A DNA stretch of 64,000 nt from Chloroflexota bacterium. GTDB taxonomy: Bacteria; Chloroflexota; Anaerolineae; Aggregatilineales; J027. The notes under the pieces were generated by a model, which did not search any database, was not told the DNA's origin, and saw nothing but the letters and a program-made list of their open reading frames with translations. Position 1 is the first letter of the stretch; each line of letters opens with the position of its first letter. Positions 24,585-29,392 of the stretch are shown one piece after another. Both the position numbers and the translations under genes were made by a program. Location: assembly GCA_013112715.1 (NCBI GenBank), contig JABFGB010000006.1, positions 124,001 through 188,000 of the forward strand, written 5' to 3'.

Positions 24585-24621
24585 GATTTAGACGAACCAA
24601 CAAGATCGAAAAATTTCTGTG

Positions 24622-27273
24622 ATGGACGAACCACTGCTCAATCCTGAAGAAGGTTTAGCGCCCCATAGTCAAGAGGCCGAAGAAGCACTACTAGGGGCGA
24701 TTCTTATTAATAATGATGCGCTGTTTGAAGTGGCGTCATTTTTGCGTGCCGATGACTTTTTCTTCCTGCGCAATCAATATGTGTGGGAAGCGATGATGCG
24801 ACTGCAAGAGCGCAATGAGGTGATTGACAGCCTGACGCTTATTGAAGAACTGCGTAATCAAGGCCGCCTTGATTCCATTGGCAGCGGTTCTTATATCACC
24901 TACCTCCTTAGCAATTCCGCCACCGCCATGAACGCGGAAATTTATGGTCGGATTGTGGAGCGCACTGCCACCCGCCGCCGTTTGTTGAAAGCATCGGTTG
25001 AGATTGCGCAGCTGGCAAAAAGCGAAGACATGGATGTGAATGAGGTCATCGAACGCGCCGAAGCCAACCTCTTTAGTGTCACCGAGCGCCGTTTGAAACG
25101 GGAAGTCACTATTATTCAGGATGTCCTAGCCGAATATTATGACCGCATCGAATATCTTTATCGCACCCGTGATAAACAATCGGGCGTGCCTACCGGATTC
25201 ATTGATCTTGACCGCTTGTTGGGTGGGTTGCAGAAAAGTGACCTGCTGATTGTGGCTGCGCGTCCCGGTATGGGCAAGACCAGCTTTGGCCTCAATATTG
25301 CCCGGAATGCGGCGCGGGCCGGTGGACGAGTGGCGGTGTTTAGCCTTGAAATGAGCAACGAACAGCTTGTCCAGCGATTTATTGCCAGCGAATCCGGCAT
25401 AGATAGCCAAAAACTGCGCCTCGGTGATCTGGATGACCGGGAATGGGGGCTTTTTACTCAATCGGCTGCCCGACTCAGCGAACTCCCCATCTTTTTGGAT
25501 GATACCGTCGCCATCACCCCTATCCAACTGCGAACCAAGTGCCGCCGCCTCAAGCGCGAATTTGACATTAACTTGGTGATTGTGGACTACCTGCAATTGA
25601 TGAATGGCAAACAGGGAGACCGCAATCAGAACCGCGAACAGGAAATCAGCTATATTTCGCAGTCCCTCAAAGAGTTGGCCCGCGAACTAAATCTACCCGT
25701 TTTGGCATTGGGTCAATTAAATCGTGCCGTTGAGCAGCGTGCTGACAAAAGACCACAGCTATCGGATTTACGCGAATCGGGATGTTTATCAGGGGATACC
25801 TTAATTTCGTTGGCAGATACCGGCGAAGTCCTACCAATTCGGGCCTTAGCCGGACGTGCAGGCTTCAATATTTGGGCGTTGAACCCAGATACTCTGAAAC
25901 TGGAAAAAGCATTGGTCAGTCGGGCTTTTTCAACAGGAGTAAAGCCTGTTTATCGTTTGACTACCCAACTGGGGCGGACGATCCACGCTACAGCCAACCA
26001 CAAATTCCTGACGATTCATGGTTGGCGGCGTTTGGATGAGCTTCAAGGAGGGGATTATCTTGCCCTGCCGCGAACGATGCCAAGTTCTGATTCCCAAACA
26101 ATGACCGACGCTGAACTGGCCTTACTTGGTCATTTAATTGGAGACGGGTGTATCTTGCCGGGACAATCTATCCATTACACAACCCGCGAAATAGACCTTG
26201 CCCAAAAAGTGGCAGACTTGGCCTTAGAAGTGTTTGGCAACAAGGTCAAGCCCCGTATTCAACAAGATCACACGTGGTATCAGGTGTATTTACCCACCAC
26301 CCTTAAACCCAGTCGTCGCACTCGTAGTCCTATAGTTGAATGGTTAGTGGAATTGGGAATTTGGGGGTTCCGTTCACATGAGAAATTCGTCCCAGCAAAG
26401 GTTTTCCAGCAACCTACTGAAGCTATTGCACTATTTCTGCGCCATTTATGGGCAACGGATGGTTGCATAAAACTTGTCGAAGGCAAAAGTATCCGACCTA
26501 TTGCCTATTACGCTTCGAGTAGCGAACGACTTGCCATAGATGTGCAGACACTACTGATTCGGAATTGTATTAACGCAAGGTTAAAGCGTATTCCACAAGG
26601 CAGTAAGGGGCGTGACCAGTATCATGTCATCGTTACTGGCAAACAGGATATGTCTATTTTTATTGATAGAATCGGGGCAGTAGGCCAATACAAAACCCAA
26701 TCCCTACAACAAATTTGGCAGCACTTAGATGCCCATATTGCCAATACCAATCGAGACATTATTCCATTTGATATATGGCGAATGTACGTTGTCCCTTCAA
26801 TGCAAGCCTCTGGAATGACCGTGCGACAAATGCAGAGTGCGATAGATATGGCCCATTGTGGGACAACCCTTTACAAACAAAATGTCAGCCGTGCGAGAGC
26901 TGCGCGTGTAGCGAATGTTGTCCAGTCAAAGCCGCTCGCTGCATTAGCCGAGAGCGATGTCTATTGGGATACCATTCAATCAATTGAATTGGATGGTGAG
27001 GAAGAAGTTTTTGATCTAACCGTACCCGGACTGCATAATTTCGTGGCGAATAACATCATCGTACACAACTCTATCGAGCAGAACAGTGACGTGGTGATGT
27101 TTATTTATCGGGATGATGTCTATAACGAAAATTCTGAAGCCCCGAATCAGGCTGAAATCATTGTGGCGAAACACCGCAATGGCCCAACCGGAATGATCTC
27201 GCTCTATTTTGATAAGCGACTCACCCAGTTCCGGGACTTGATGAAACAATCCATTGACTTGACTAATTACTAA
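24622..27273 (+). CDS. dnaB: Replicative DNA helicase DnaB containing an intein
   Basis: 883 residues as translated. The N-terminal primase-interacting domain (APHSQEAEEALLGAILINND) is followed by the RecA-like ATPase domain with Walker A in AARPGMGKTSFGLNIA and the Walker B region VIVDYLQLMNG. After RPQLSDLRESG the sequence is interrupted by a 429-residue intein (residues 388-816). The helicase resumes at SIEQNSDVVMFIYRDDVYNE and ends with the arginine-finger region and KHRNGPTG. Without the intein DnaB is 454 residues, the normal length, so the spliced protein should be complete. DnaB unwinds DNA at the replication fork as a hexamer. A GTG directly before the ATG could also start it. The DnaD-domain and dual-DnaC genes follow, giving a helicase-loading neighbourhood. 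Confidence 0.96.
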   Translation: MDEPLLNPEEGLAPHSQEAEEALLGAILINNDALFEVASFLRADDFFFLRNQYVWEAMMRLQERNEVIDSLTLIEELRNQGRLDSIGSGSYITYLLSNSATAMNAEIYGRIVERTATRRRLLKASVEIAQLAKSEDMDVNEVIERAEANLFSVTERRLKREVTIIQDVLAEYYDRIEYLYRTRDKQSGVPTGFIDLDRLLGGLQKSDLLIVAARPGMGKTSFGLNIARNAARAGGRVAVFSLEMSNEQLVQRFIASESGIDSQKLRLGDLDDREWGLFTQSAARLSELPIFLDDTVAITPIQLRTKCRRLKREFDINLVIVDYLQLMNGKQGDRNQNREQEISYISQSLKELARELNLPVLALGQLNRAVEQRADKRPQLSDLRESGCLSGDTLISLADTGEVLPIRALAGRAGFNIWALNPDTLKLEKALVSRAFSTGVKPVYRLTTQLGRTIHATANHKFLTIHGWRRLDELQGGDYLALPRTMPSSDSQTMTDAELALLGHLIGDGCILPGQSIHYTTREIDLAQKVADLALEVFGNKVKPRIQQDHTWYQVYLPTTLKPSRRTRSPIVEWLVELGIWGFRSHEKFVPAKVFQQPTEAIALFLRHLWATDGCIKLVEGKSIRPIAYYASSSERLAIDVQTLLIRNCINARLKRIPQGSKGRDQYHVIVTGKQDMSIFIDRIGAVGQYKTQSLQQIWQHLDAHIANTNRDIIPFDIWRMYVVPSMQASGMTVRQMQSAIDMAHCGTTLYKQNVSRARAARVANVVQSKPLAALAESDVYWDTIQSIELDGEEEVFDLTVPGLHNFVANNIIVHNSIEQNSDVVMFIYRDDVYNENSEAPNQAEIIVAKHRNGPTGMISLYFDKRLTQFRDLMKQSIDLTNY
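25783..27069 (+). mobile_element. Homing intein in DnaB (LAGLIDADG endonuclease type)
   Basis: The intein begins with Cys388 (CLSGDTLISLADTGEVLPI) and ends with FVANNIIVHN before Ser817, so the splice residues Cys1, the terminal His-Asn and Ser+1 are all present. Block B reads GRTIHATANHKFLTI. The centre holds a DOD endonuclease: block C LLGHLIGDGC (D508) and block E FLRHLWATDGC (D613), both with the catalytic Asp. Insertion is in the helicase motif at ESG|C...HN|SIEQ. From general knowledge this is the same site as the Synechocystis DnaB intein, and the N- and C-terminal blocks resemble it closely. It should be able to both splice and home. The central part looks more AT-rich than the flanking exteins. 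Confidence 0.95.
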
Positions 27274-27366: not shown

Positions 27367-28014
27367 ATGCAGGGATTTAATGGTTTTCCGAAGAAAGCCA
27401 AATTTATCGGATTACCCGAACCGTTTTTTATCGAATTGCTGCCGATGATTGACCATCTGGCTGAGTTGAAGGTCACGCTCTATTGCTTGTGGGCCATTCA
27501 GCAGCAAGAAGGCAAATATAAATACCTGCGCCTGTCAGAGATCATGGCGGATGAATTATTTATGGCGGGTTTGGCCTCCAAGGAGCCTGAGCGTGAGGTT
27601 GTTTTGCGAGATGCCCTTGAACGAGCCGTCATACGTGGCACGTTATTTCATGTCACGATCACACTAACCGCCACACAAGAAGAGATTTATTTTGTGAATA
27701 CTCCTGATGGTCGAGCGGCGCTAAATGCCTTAGAAAAAGGGTCATGGGTGCCGGGTGATGCTTTACGACCAGTCCAGTTGATTACGGAAAGGCCGCTCAT
27801 TTTTAAACTGTATGAGCAAAATATTGGAAACATTACGCCGATGATGCGTGATCGGCTGTTGGATGCCGAACGAGAATTTCCTGAAGACTGGATTGAAGAG
27901 GCGATTCGCATTGCTGTCGAGCAAAACAAGCGTAGTTGGAGTTACATTCAGGCGATTCTTGATCGTTGGATGAGGGATGGAAAGGGGACAGGTAAAAATG
28001 GGTTCTCTCGGTGA
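27367..28014 (+). CDS. DnaD-domain primosome-type protein
   Basis: 215 residues. The N-terminal half is a winged-helix-like region (KFIGLPEPFFIELLPMIDHL, LKVTLYCLWAIQQQEGKY). The C-terminal half is a DnaB2/DnaD domain: YEQNIGNITPMMRDRLLD, then EFPEDWIEEAIRIAVEQNKR and SWSYIQAILDRW, the signature helices of the DnaD family that bind DNA and remodel it during primosome assembly. It follows dnaB by 93 bases and overlaps the start of the dual-DnaC gene by 17 bases. The three genes probably form a helicase loading unit comparable to DnaD-DnaI in Firmicutes. An AGGA lies 9 bases before the ATG. Confidence 0.83.
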   Translation: MQGFNGFPKKAKFIGLPEPFFIELLPMIDHLAELKVTLYCLWAIQQQEGKYKYLRLSEIMADELFMAGLASKEPEREVVLRDALERAVIRGTLFHVTITLTATQEEIYFVNTPDGRAALNALEKGSWVPGDALRPVQLITERPLIFKLYEQNIGNITPMMRDRLLDAEREFPEDWIEEAIRIAVEQNKRSWSYIQAILDRWMRDGKGTGKNGFSR

Positions 28015-29392
28015 TTACCTTGATAAATTCAATAGTTTTTGGGATAAATCTGATGCGTCTTCTGAAAATGTTGAGCTGTCGCCCGATGTCTGTCCCATTT
28101 GTGGGGGCCTAGGATATTTCACACCGAGCAATGCGCCGATAGGTCATCCGGCTTTTGGTAGAGCCATAGTTTGTGAGTGTCAGCAGAATAATATTGCTAA
28201 ACAAGAGACTGATCGTCGAAGAAATATCAGCAATCTTACCTATTATCAAAATATGAGTTTTGATAACTTTATTACTTCTGATGTCGCCTTGTCTCAAATA
28301 CAGAAAGCAACTCTTAGTAATTGCATAGATAAAGCATATCATTTTGCCAACAATCCTGAAGGATGGATACTGTTTTACGGTGGTTATGGATGTGGCAAAA
28401 CCCATTTAGCAGCTTCAATTGGCAACTATTGTCTAACCCGAGGGCAATCTGTAATTTTCATGACAATTCCTGACCTTTTGGATCATCTAAGGGCCGCGTT
28501 TGGACCAAATTCTGAGTTGGCCTATGATGAGAAGTTTGAAATGATACGGGAAGCACCCCTTTTGATTCTTGATGACCTAGGAGCGGAAAGCCCTACCGCT
28601 TGGGCTAACGAGAAACTCTATCAATTGTTCAACCACCGATATGTTAGGAGATTGCCGACAGTTATCACCACAAACTGTGATTTTGACCGTTTGGACCCAC
28701 GAATTACCAGCAGATTGAGAGATTATCAACTGTGCAGGCTGGTCAACATGCAGGAGTTGCCTGATTATCGTAGCCATCTTGATGATCAGACTCTGGGAGA
28801 AATATCAAATGTCAAAATCTATGAGGGGATGACATTTGAAAATTTCTCAACACACCGCGACGAGCCACATACAAAGTCTAAGGAATCGCTCTCAAAGGCG
28901 GCGGCGGCGGCTAAACAATTTGCTGAAGCTCCCAGCCAACAGTGGCTGATACTTGTTGGGAAAAATGGAACCGGAAAGACCCATCTTGCTGCTGCAATCG
29001 CTAATGCCCGAATCAAGGTGGGTGAGCCTGTGTATTTTGTTACATTACCCGACTTATTAGACTACTTGCGGAGATCTTTTGAGCCTAATTCACGGATGAG
29101 CTTGGAAAAACGCTTTCAAGAAGTTTGTGCGACGGATGTCCTTATCCTAGATCATTTTGACCTCAGTGCTGCGTCTTCATGGGCACGGGAAAAGGTTTTC
29201 CAACTGATTGAATATCGTTATGTTCGTCGCTTGCCTACTGTTATTACAAAGCCGGGAGACAGTTTTGTGGACTTGGATCCTGTGTTCGAAAGCCGCTTTT
29301 CAGATTCACGTTTATGTCGAGTAATTCATATTTCAACCCCGGAACGTAAAGGTAAATCGATACTGACTTTTGACGAGAACAATCGAAAATAG
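27998..29392 (+). CDS. Tandem DnaC/DnaI-type AAA+ protein (two ATPase domains in one chain)
   Basis: 464 residues. An N-terminal zinc-binding region (CPICGGLGYF...CECQQN, residues 29-63) leads to a first DnaC/IstB-type AAA+ domain: Walker A GGYGCGKTH (K134), Walker B LLILDDLGAE (D192-D193), and DPRITSRLRD with the arginine finger. A second, homologous domain begins at about residue 275 (IYEGMTFENFSTH matches TYYQNMSFDNFIT of the first): Walker A GKNGTGKTH (K327), Walker B VLILDHFDLS (D385-H386), and ESRFSD. The second catalytic acidic residue is thus His. Usual DnaC loaders have a single domain of 250-330 residues. ATG 27998 is used, with AGG upstream; an ATG at 27977 is possible. Base composition is lower in GC than neighbours. 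Likely loads DnaB with the DnaD-domain partner, by inference. Confidence 0.85.
   Translation: MGSLGDYLDKFNSFWDKSDASSENVELSPDVCPICGGLGYFTPSNAPIGHPAFGRAIVCECQQNNIAKQETDRRRNISNLTYYQNMSFDNFITSDVALSQIQKATLSNCIDKAYHFANNPEGWILFYGGYGCGKTHLAASIGNYCLTRGQSVIFMTIPDLLDHLRAAFGPNSELAYDEKFEMIREAPLLILDDLGAESPTAWANEKLYQLFNHRYVRRLPTVITTNCDFDRLDPRITSRLRDYQLCRLVNMQELPDYRSHLDDQTLGEISNVKIYEGMTFENFSTHRDEPHTKSKESLSKAAAAAKQFAEAPSQQWLILVGKNGTGKTHLAAAIANARIKVGEPVYFVTLPDLLDYLRRSFEPNSRMSLEKRFQEVCATDVLILDHFDLSAASSWAREKVFQLIEYRYVRRLPTVITKPGDSFVDLDPVFESRFSDSRLCRVIHISTPERKGKSILTFDENNRK

Follow-up and report, generated by a model that had tools for sequence, protein, structure and literature searches.

Can a helicase loader carry two unequal ATP sites within a single polypeptide? 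The question is raised by a gene in the window (the whole 64,000-nucleotide stretch of Chloroflexota DNA analyzed here), in which a preliminary description saw two fused DnaC-type AAA+ domains, perhaps one with an active and the other with a regulatory ATP site, encoded just downstream of a DnaD-domain protein. The features referred to below are as follows.

24619..27273, + strand: replicative helicase gene dnaB (PF03796, PF00772, PF14890, PF14528)
27367..28014, + strand: DnaD-like partner gene (PF07261 / TIGR01446), overlapping the next gene
27977..29392, + strand: gene of the tandem AAA+ protein, a probable helicase loader (471 aa from ATG 27977; 464 aa from ATG 27998)
28091..28180, + strand: N-terminal CxxC...CxC motif (Cys39, Cys42, Cys66, Cys68), a candidate Zn site in the putative helicase-binding part
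28229..28774, + strand: AAA+ domain 1 (D1), with the complete site K141, D199, D200, N233, R246 and R265
28805..29347, + strand: AAA+ domain 2 (D2), with K334, D392 and R440 kept, H393 in the place of the catalytic acid and P426 in that of the sensor-I Asn
29150..29155, + strand: Asp392-His393 of the D2 Walker B, placed by motif alignment

The frame at 27977-29392 (+) is open for 471 codons. Of its two starts, we judge ATG 27998 likelier than ATG 27977, as the AGG-rich stretch upstream is better placed for it. Residues are numbered here from ATG 27977; subtracting 7 gives the numbering from ATG 27998, so that our His393 is the His386 of the preliminary description. The genes run in the order dnaB, dnaD-domain gene and loader, and the DnaD assignment of the middle one, made earlier by inspection, was borne out by PF07261 and TIGR01446. 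The dnaB gene also contains an intein (PF14890), in which Pfam finds a LAGLIDADG_3 endonuclease domain; judging from the translation, the intein sits between the helicase stretches DLRESG and SIEQNSD.

Two homologous AAA+ domains are indeed present in the chain. PF01695 (IstB_IS21), the AAA+ domain type of DnaC, DnaI and IstB, matched two stretches of the loader (123.2 bits against a Pfam cut-off of 24.1), and a Smith-Waterman comparison of D1 (residues ~85-266) with D2 (~277-457) scored 355, when 300 shuffles gave 29 ± 5 with a maximum of 57, a likeness far beyond chance. The Walker A motifs (GGYGCGKTH and GKNGTGKTH) and Walker B motifs (LLILDDLGAE and VLILDHFDLS) read as they had been described. 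Two AAA+ domains per chain depart from the one-per-chain form that is typical of, though not strictly defining for, DnaC/DnaI loaders. The CxxC..CxC motif of the N-terminal part was found in 168 of 198 tandem and single-domain proteins, the remaining 30 having CxxC..C only.

An AlphaFold model of the loader alone (6 sequences, mean pLDDT 73, pTM 0.51) is too shallow to give a trustworthy domain-domain geometry, and the N-terminal part is modeled with low to middling confidence. Residues 87-265 of the model (D1) matched Aquifex DnaC (3ecc; Z 20.7, rmsd 2.0, 164 aligned), and D2 matched both DnaA (residues 277-460, 3r8f; Z 21.3, rmsd 1.9, 163 aligned) and E. coli DnaC (residues 271-460, 6qem; Z 20.0, rmsd 2.3, 179 aligned). 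Because these matches are nearly tied, they identify the clade, DnaC/DnaA-type AAA+, and not its member. The best PDB matches by sequence, 2w58 and 4m4w, are a point of likeness to Bacillus DnaI. The loader passed only one NCBIfam cut-off, that of the 'hypothetical protein' subfamily NF005992 (223.5 vs 189), and missed those of the equivalogs for DnaC (NF005931; 136.3 vs 357 bits), DnaI (NF006505; 140.7 vs 228 bits), IstB (146.3 vs 200 bits) and DnaA (86.3 vs 343.9 bits).

At E ≤0.001, whole-protein searches matched 150 of 151 order genomes, 295 of 298 class genomes and, in a draw from the phylum, 279 of 301, counts that include DnaA and other AAA+ proteins; at E <1e-20, counted by eye and including single-domain loaders, matches were found in 142 of 151 order and 279 of 298 class genomes. 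All seven of the weak-match order and class genomes that we viewed (L336-L342) had a faint AAA+ match only and no DnaD neighbor, which means that these genomes either lack the loader or have it in a gap of the assembly. The homologues compared were not drawn at random: they comprised the 30 best matches of each search (order, class, phylum) and 120 hand-picked places spanning families, with 41 genomes chosen by handle as a later addition. Left out of the motif counts were L003-L007, which repeat genome loci or L036, and identical sequences; L104 and L194, whose frames are broken or mixed; L056, L069 and L118, truncated by a contig end; L068, shortened and with an odd D2; and the DnaA-type L002. 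The comparison covered 153 tandem proteins, counting that of the window (60 from the order, 69 from elsewhere in the class and 24 from outside it); at first it also took in 45 single-domain proteins, all from outside the class.

The duplicated form is therefore shared with 152 other proteins. A fusion or sequencing artefact is excluded, the same frame being open in many independent assemblies, and in none of the loci examined did relatives carry the two domains as two adjacent genes; the genes there are either tandem or single-domain, L104 being a tandem whose frame is split in two and L294 one with an unread stretch at the end of D2. The 45 single-domain homologues are complete at the site in 43-45 cases per motif. 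Within the class, the divergent loaders of families f11, f19 and f56 had a single AAA+ domain with all six motif letters intact in 13 of 13 cases. By these comparisons the tandem is common within the class and also occurs beyond it, and it is neither universal nor needed in the class.

We read the motif columns from one alignment of all domains and mapped them to DnaC by adding the K-12 protein. D1 motifs aligned to DnaC K112, D169/E170, N203 and R237. MAFFT put R246 on DnaC R216; R216 and R220 were instead assigned by the R-x3-R pattern (RVMDR / RITSR), a judgement that makes R246 the equivalent of the finger R220. The complete motif set (Walker A, Walker B, sensor I, Arg finger and sensor II) is present in D1 and not in D2, so that D1 is, by its motifs, a complete ATPase. 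Asp392-His393 of D2 stand where D1 has Asp199-Asp200, and D2 does not align with an intact acid elsewhere: the acid column truly holds His. The preliminary description had not noticed that D2 is also without the sensor-I Asn (Pro426 for Asn233) and that it has kept Lys334 of Walker A and the finger Arg440. Its sensor-II position holds Lys458 by alignment (context PERKGK), a placement that is uncertain.

The same inequality runs through the 129 tandem proteins of the order and class. The Walker-A Lys and the first Walker-B acid were present in all 129 D1s and all 129 D2s. D1 also kept the second Walker-B acid (129/129), the sensor-I Asn (127/129), the Arg finger (129/129) and the sensor-II Arg (129/129), and the corresponding counts for D2 were 98, 4, 122 and 58. 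A complete D1 with an incomplete D2 was found in 125 of the 129, both domains being complete in 2 and neither in 2. The DnaC mutants K112R, E170Q, N203A, R220D and R237D each lack ATPase, and N203A was the most compromised loader of the mutant panel in the DnaC study (PMC8213410). Since the equivalent DnaC mutations abolish ATPase, D2 is predicted not to hydrolyze ATP. The older change in it is the loss of the sensor-I Asn, often together with that of sensor II, not the replacement by His. The positions of contact with ssDNA are kept in both domains: that of DnaC Arg172 has R or K in all 129 D1s and in 128 of the 129 D2s, that of Trp209 has W in 128 and 129, respectively, and the positions of K143, F146, S177 and Y179 are matched in D2. 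D2 accordingly retains the residues for binding ATP (Walker A), for reaching a neighbor's nucleotide (Arg finger) and for touching ssDNA.

The motifs support one intact and one hydrolysis-deficient ATP site in the chain of the window protein, and to this extent the built-in pair proposed earlier is supported. The special part given to the His is not. Among the order and class D2s, the second acid is missing in 31 of 129, replaced by H (11), N (7), Q (6), S (3), A (2) or G (2), and the other 98 still have it; the loss at sensor I goes deeper. On a FastTree tree built with that column included, the acid column underwent at least 17 changes of state, 8 of them forced by branches with support of at least 95. 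The His was found in five of five members of the genus compared and, outside it, in L012, L013, L014, L022, L032 and L155. As a conserved functional residue it was rejected beyond the genus, where it is one of several substitutes for a decaying acid. One further protein of the order, L322 (506 aa), has three HMM stretches and no DnaD match and stands outside the counts; read by eye, it has the tandem form, with an intact D1 and a D2 without acid, sensor I or sensor II.

Tandems from outside the class differ in which copy is impaired. In the 24 compared, D1 had the sensor-II Arg in 1 and the sensor-I Asn in 16, and D2 had them in 20 and 12, respectively, with both Walker-B acids in 24 of 24. 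By a four-motif rule, D2 alone was complete in 10 of the 24 and neither domain in 14; a complete D1 was found in none. After seeing this swap, we chose 20 further outside genomes by handle, which yielded 7 single-domain and 13 tandem proteins. The sensor-II Arg was absent from D1 in all 13 (Lys in L311) and present in D2 in 10 of the 12 that were readable (Fisher p = 2e-5), L294 being unreadable, L304 having His and L311 none. The sensor-I Asn was found in D1 of 1 of the 13 and in D2 of 2, which brings D2 of both outside sets to 14 of 37. With so few sensor-I Asn residues in either domain, the mirror image is clear for sensor II only, many of these proteins have no Asn-bearing site at all, and a rule of one complete site per chain fails for many outside-class tandems. 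Mean pairwise identity outside the class is 0.48 for D2 and 0.53 for D1, and this lower conservation of D2 does not favor it as the main working copy there. Among these tandems, two D1s show further decay: the Walker-A Lys is Arg by alignment in L309, and the second Walker-B acid is Asn in L302.

A single duplication is favored over two independent ones by the tree comparisons. An arrangement with all D2s on one side was not rejected by the AU test (p 0.81), and the tree constrained to it even scored 19.9 log units above that of the quick free search; in quick free trees, the outside-class D2s fall into more than one group. The outside-class single-domain forms group with D1 in the quick trees, which suggests that they lost D2 or originated before the duplication, and the 13 single-domain loaders within the class cluster together with weak support (62) at an uncertain position. 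Two of the outside-class one-domain loaders, L163 (1682-3310, -) and L176 (445-2412, +), have several hundred residues ahead of the AAA+ domain in the stop-to-stop frame. These long N-terminal parts, in which Pfam scans of the two showed no other family, are perhaps partly non-coding read-through; L167, L182, L186, L195, L201, L202 and L210 have similarly extended frames. A phage origin of the tandem was considered and rejected, as none of the 80 IMG/VR loci kept (of 105 found) was two-domain. In the 30 phage rows listed (636 records in all), matches covered ~830 bases of DNA at most, the size of one domain, and the two-piece phage matches H1-H6 were one domain aligning to both halves. The five matches listed in a broad search were all Chloroflexi/Anaerolineae records by title.

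The neighborhood points to helicase loading. A DnaD-like frame precedes the loader in 144 of 163 tandem frames, and in 8 more as an overlapping stop-to-stop frame (the 163 include the duplicate loci L003-L007 and fragments); for single-domain loaders the figures are 41 and 3 of 48. The DnaB C-terminus lies upstream on the same strand at 164 of 209 loci and at 52 of the 57 whose sequence ahead of the loader frame exceeds 1.55 kb, most loci without it having less upstream room. DciA (PF05258), the loader usually found in place of DnaC/DnaI types, was not found in 60 of 61 order genomes searched, the single match (G053, 24.7 bits) being partial and in a genome whose loader gene is broken in the assembly; it was found in 7 of 14 control genomes. 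Across 61 genomes of the phylum, a loader match below 1e-20, a cut chosen afterwards, was present in 0 of 15 with DciA and 39 of 46 without (Fisher p = 2e-9). Three genomes of family f68 (G434, G446 and G463; 95-99% complete) yielded neither loader nor DciA in sequence searches. The complementarity of loader and DciA agrees with the loss of dciA upon the advent of dna[CI] described in PMC5109545, which lists one domestication of a PF01695 gene in the Chloroflexi (Brezellec et al, 2016). From the dnaB-dnaD context, the complementarity with DciA and this agreement, we take the window protein, with good confidence, to be the probable resident replicative-helicase loader of the organism, one of the DnaC/DnaI type.

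How might such a chain work? On balance, we think it probable that each chain is a loader dimer in covalent form, pairing a catalytic with an ATP-holding site, and that about three such chains serve one DnaB hexamer. Bacillus DnaI binds the hexamer in the form of three dimers (PMC3791466), and the tandem chain can be read as one of these with its halves fused. The mechanism that we infer from the architecture, spread, motif states, neighborhood and DciA complementarity observed here would run as follows. The lone N-terminal domain would dock on DnaB, with D1 and D2 of one chain as a built-in dimer, so that about three chains would cover the hexamer with six AAA+ domains, arranged as a cracked ring or a spiral. 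Hydrolyzing D1 sites would alternate with non-hydrolyzing D2 sites, each D2 holding ATP and offering its Arg finger and DNA contacts. DnaD would bring the loader complex to the origin, DnaB would be loaded, and hydrolysis in D1 would release the loader.

The conservation of the fingers counts against simple alternation. In that ring order, the D1 finger would serve the dead D2 site, and it is this finger that is kept in 129 of 129, the D2 finger being replaced in 7 of 129; the reverse would be predicted. The covalent dimer can be retained if, as we suppose, the D2-bound ATP serves as a structural clasp that the D1 finger grips, or alternatively if D1 contacts D1. A fuller version of it is possible, if rather doubtful, and we put it forward tentatively: on each DnaB hexamer, three tandem chains would alternate hydrolyzing modules with permanently ATP-holding ones and, following a single duplication, opposite copies would have been silenced in separate branches of the phylum (D2 in the window's class, D1 via sensor II outside it), half the sites sufficing for loading.

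The loader might instead act as proposed with a D2 that is merely decaying, binding ATP for the stability of its fold, with no alternating role and with six chains per DnaB as for DnaC. The acid has been lost repeatedly, D2 falls below D1 in conservation both in the class (mean pairwise identity 0.45 vs 0.51) and outside it, some class members manage with one domain, and the scarcity of the sensor-I Asn in outside-class D2s raises the odds of this explanation while lowering those of the covalent dimer and of opposite silencing. Free decay, however, would not leave the Walker-A Lys in 153 of 153 and the Arg finger in 146 of 153 of all sampled D2s, nor does it sit well with the near-invariant ssDNA-contact Arg and Trp or with a tandem that persists across the sampled class; we judge decay unlikely. 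A D2 that hydrolyzes ATP slowly via substitute residues, as a timer or as the regulatory site of the preliminary description, would suit the acid and finger that most in-class D2s retain, but the sensor-I Asn has gone from 125 of 129 of them, the DnaC N203A equivalent is without ATPase, and the window's D2 lacks both acid and Asn, which makes slow hydrolysis quite improbable. An IstB-type transposition helper or a DnaA/Hda-like initiator would share the AAA+ clade, the Pfam name and the D2 model match to DnaA, tied with the DnaC rows at Z 20 to 20.7, but the protein falls below the IstB and DnaA cut-offs (as also below those of DnaC and DnaI) and its dnaB and dnaD neighbors are conserved across the phylum sample, so that such a role is very improbable.

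Bacillus DnaI partners with DnaD. Clamp loaders, ORC and F1-ATPase are rings that mix catalytic and non-catalytic ATP sites, with the two types on separate subunits; the window loader, in contrast, would carry both in one chain from one gene. From E. coli DnaC, to which the D1 motifs align, the protein differs in that DnaC has a single AAA+ domain and acts as six protomers per DnaB. DnaI is likewise an AAA+ loader and has a Zn-binding, helicase-interacting N-terminal fold, for which the conserved Cys motif makes the N-terminal part here a candidate, and forms three dimers per hexamer (PMC3791466); it has one AAA+ domain per chain where the window protein has two with unequal sites. The arrangement had been named as a candidate for an undescribed one, and this appears true in part. 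The window's gene family is very likely the resident dna[CI] of Chloroflexi, a DnaC/I-type loader already reported as a domesticated PF01695 protein in a set that includes Anaerolinea, Chloroflexus and Dehalococcoides (Brezellec et al, 2016; PMC5109545). The main text of that paper contains no occurrence of tandem, duplicat-, DnaD or IstB, and in open-licence PMC papers we found no description of a tandem loader with unequal, differently degraded sites. The kind of loader is known, then, and the tandem architecture with its swapped loss is the apparently new part.

How many of the six ATP sites in a loader ring have to fire, and whether loaders act as dimers, are questions that DnaC and DnaI, with their identical sites, make hard to answer by experiment. 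A natural covalent pair with unequal sites, together with lineages that have lost the sensor II of the other copy, makes these points testable by single mutations in one polypeptide. If the proposal is true, the protein would be the bacterial equivalent, encoded by one gene, of the AAA+ rings in which clamp loaders and ORC mix active and inactive sites. The seven in-class D2s with a replaced finger, in which the column holds Leu (4) or Lys (3) (L137, L143, L146, L149, L152, L153 and L154), offer a natural test of whether D2 needs it.
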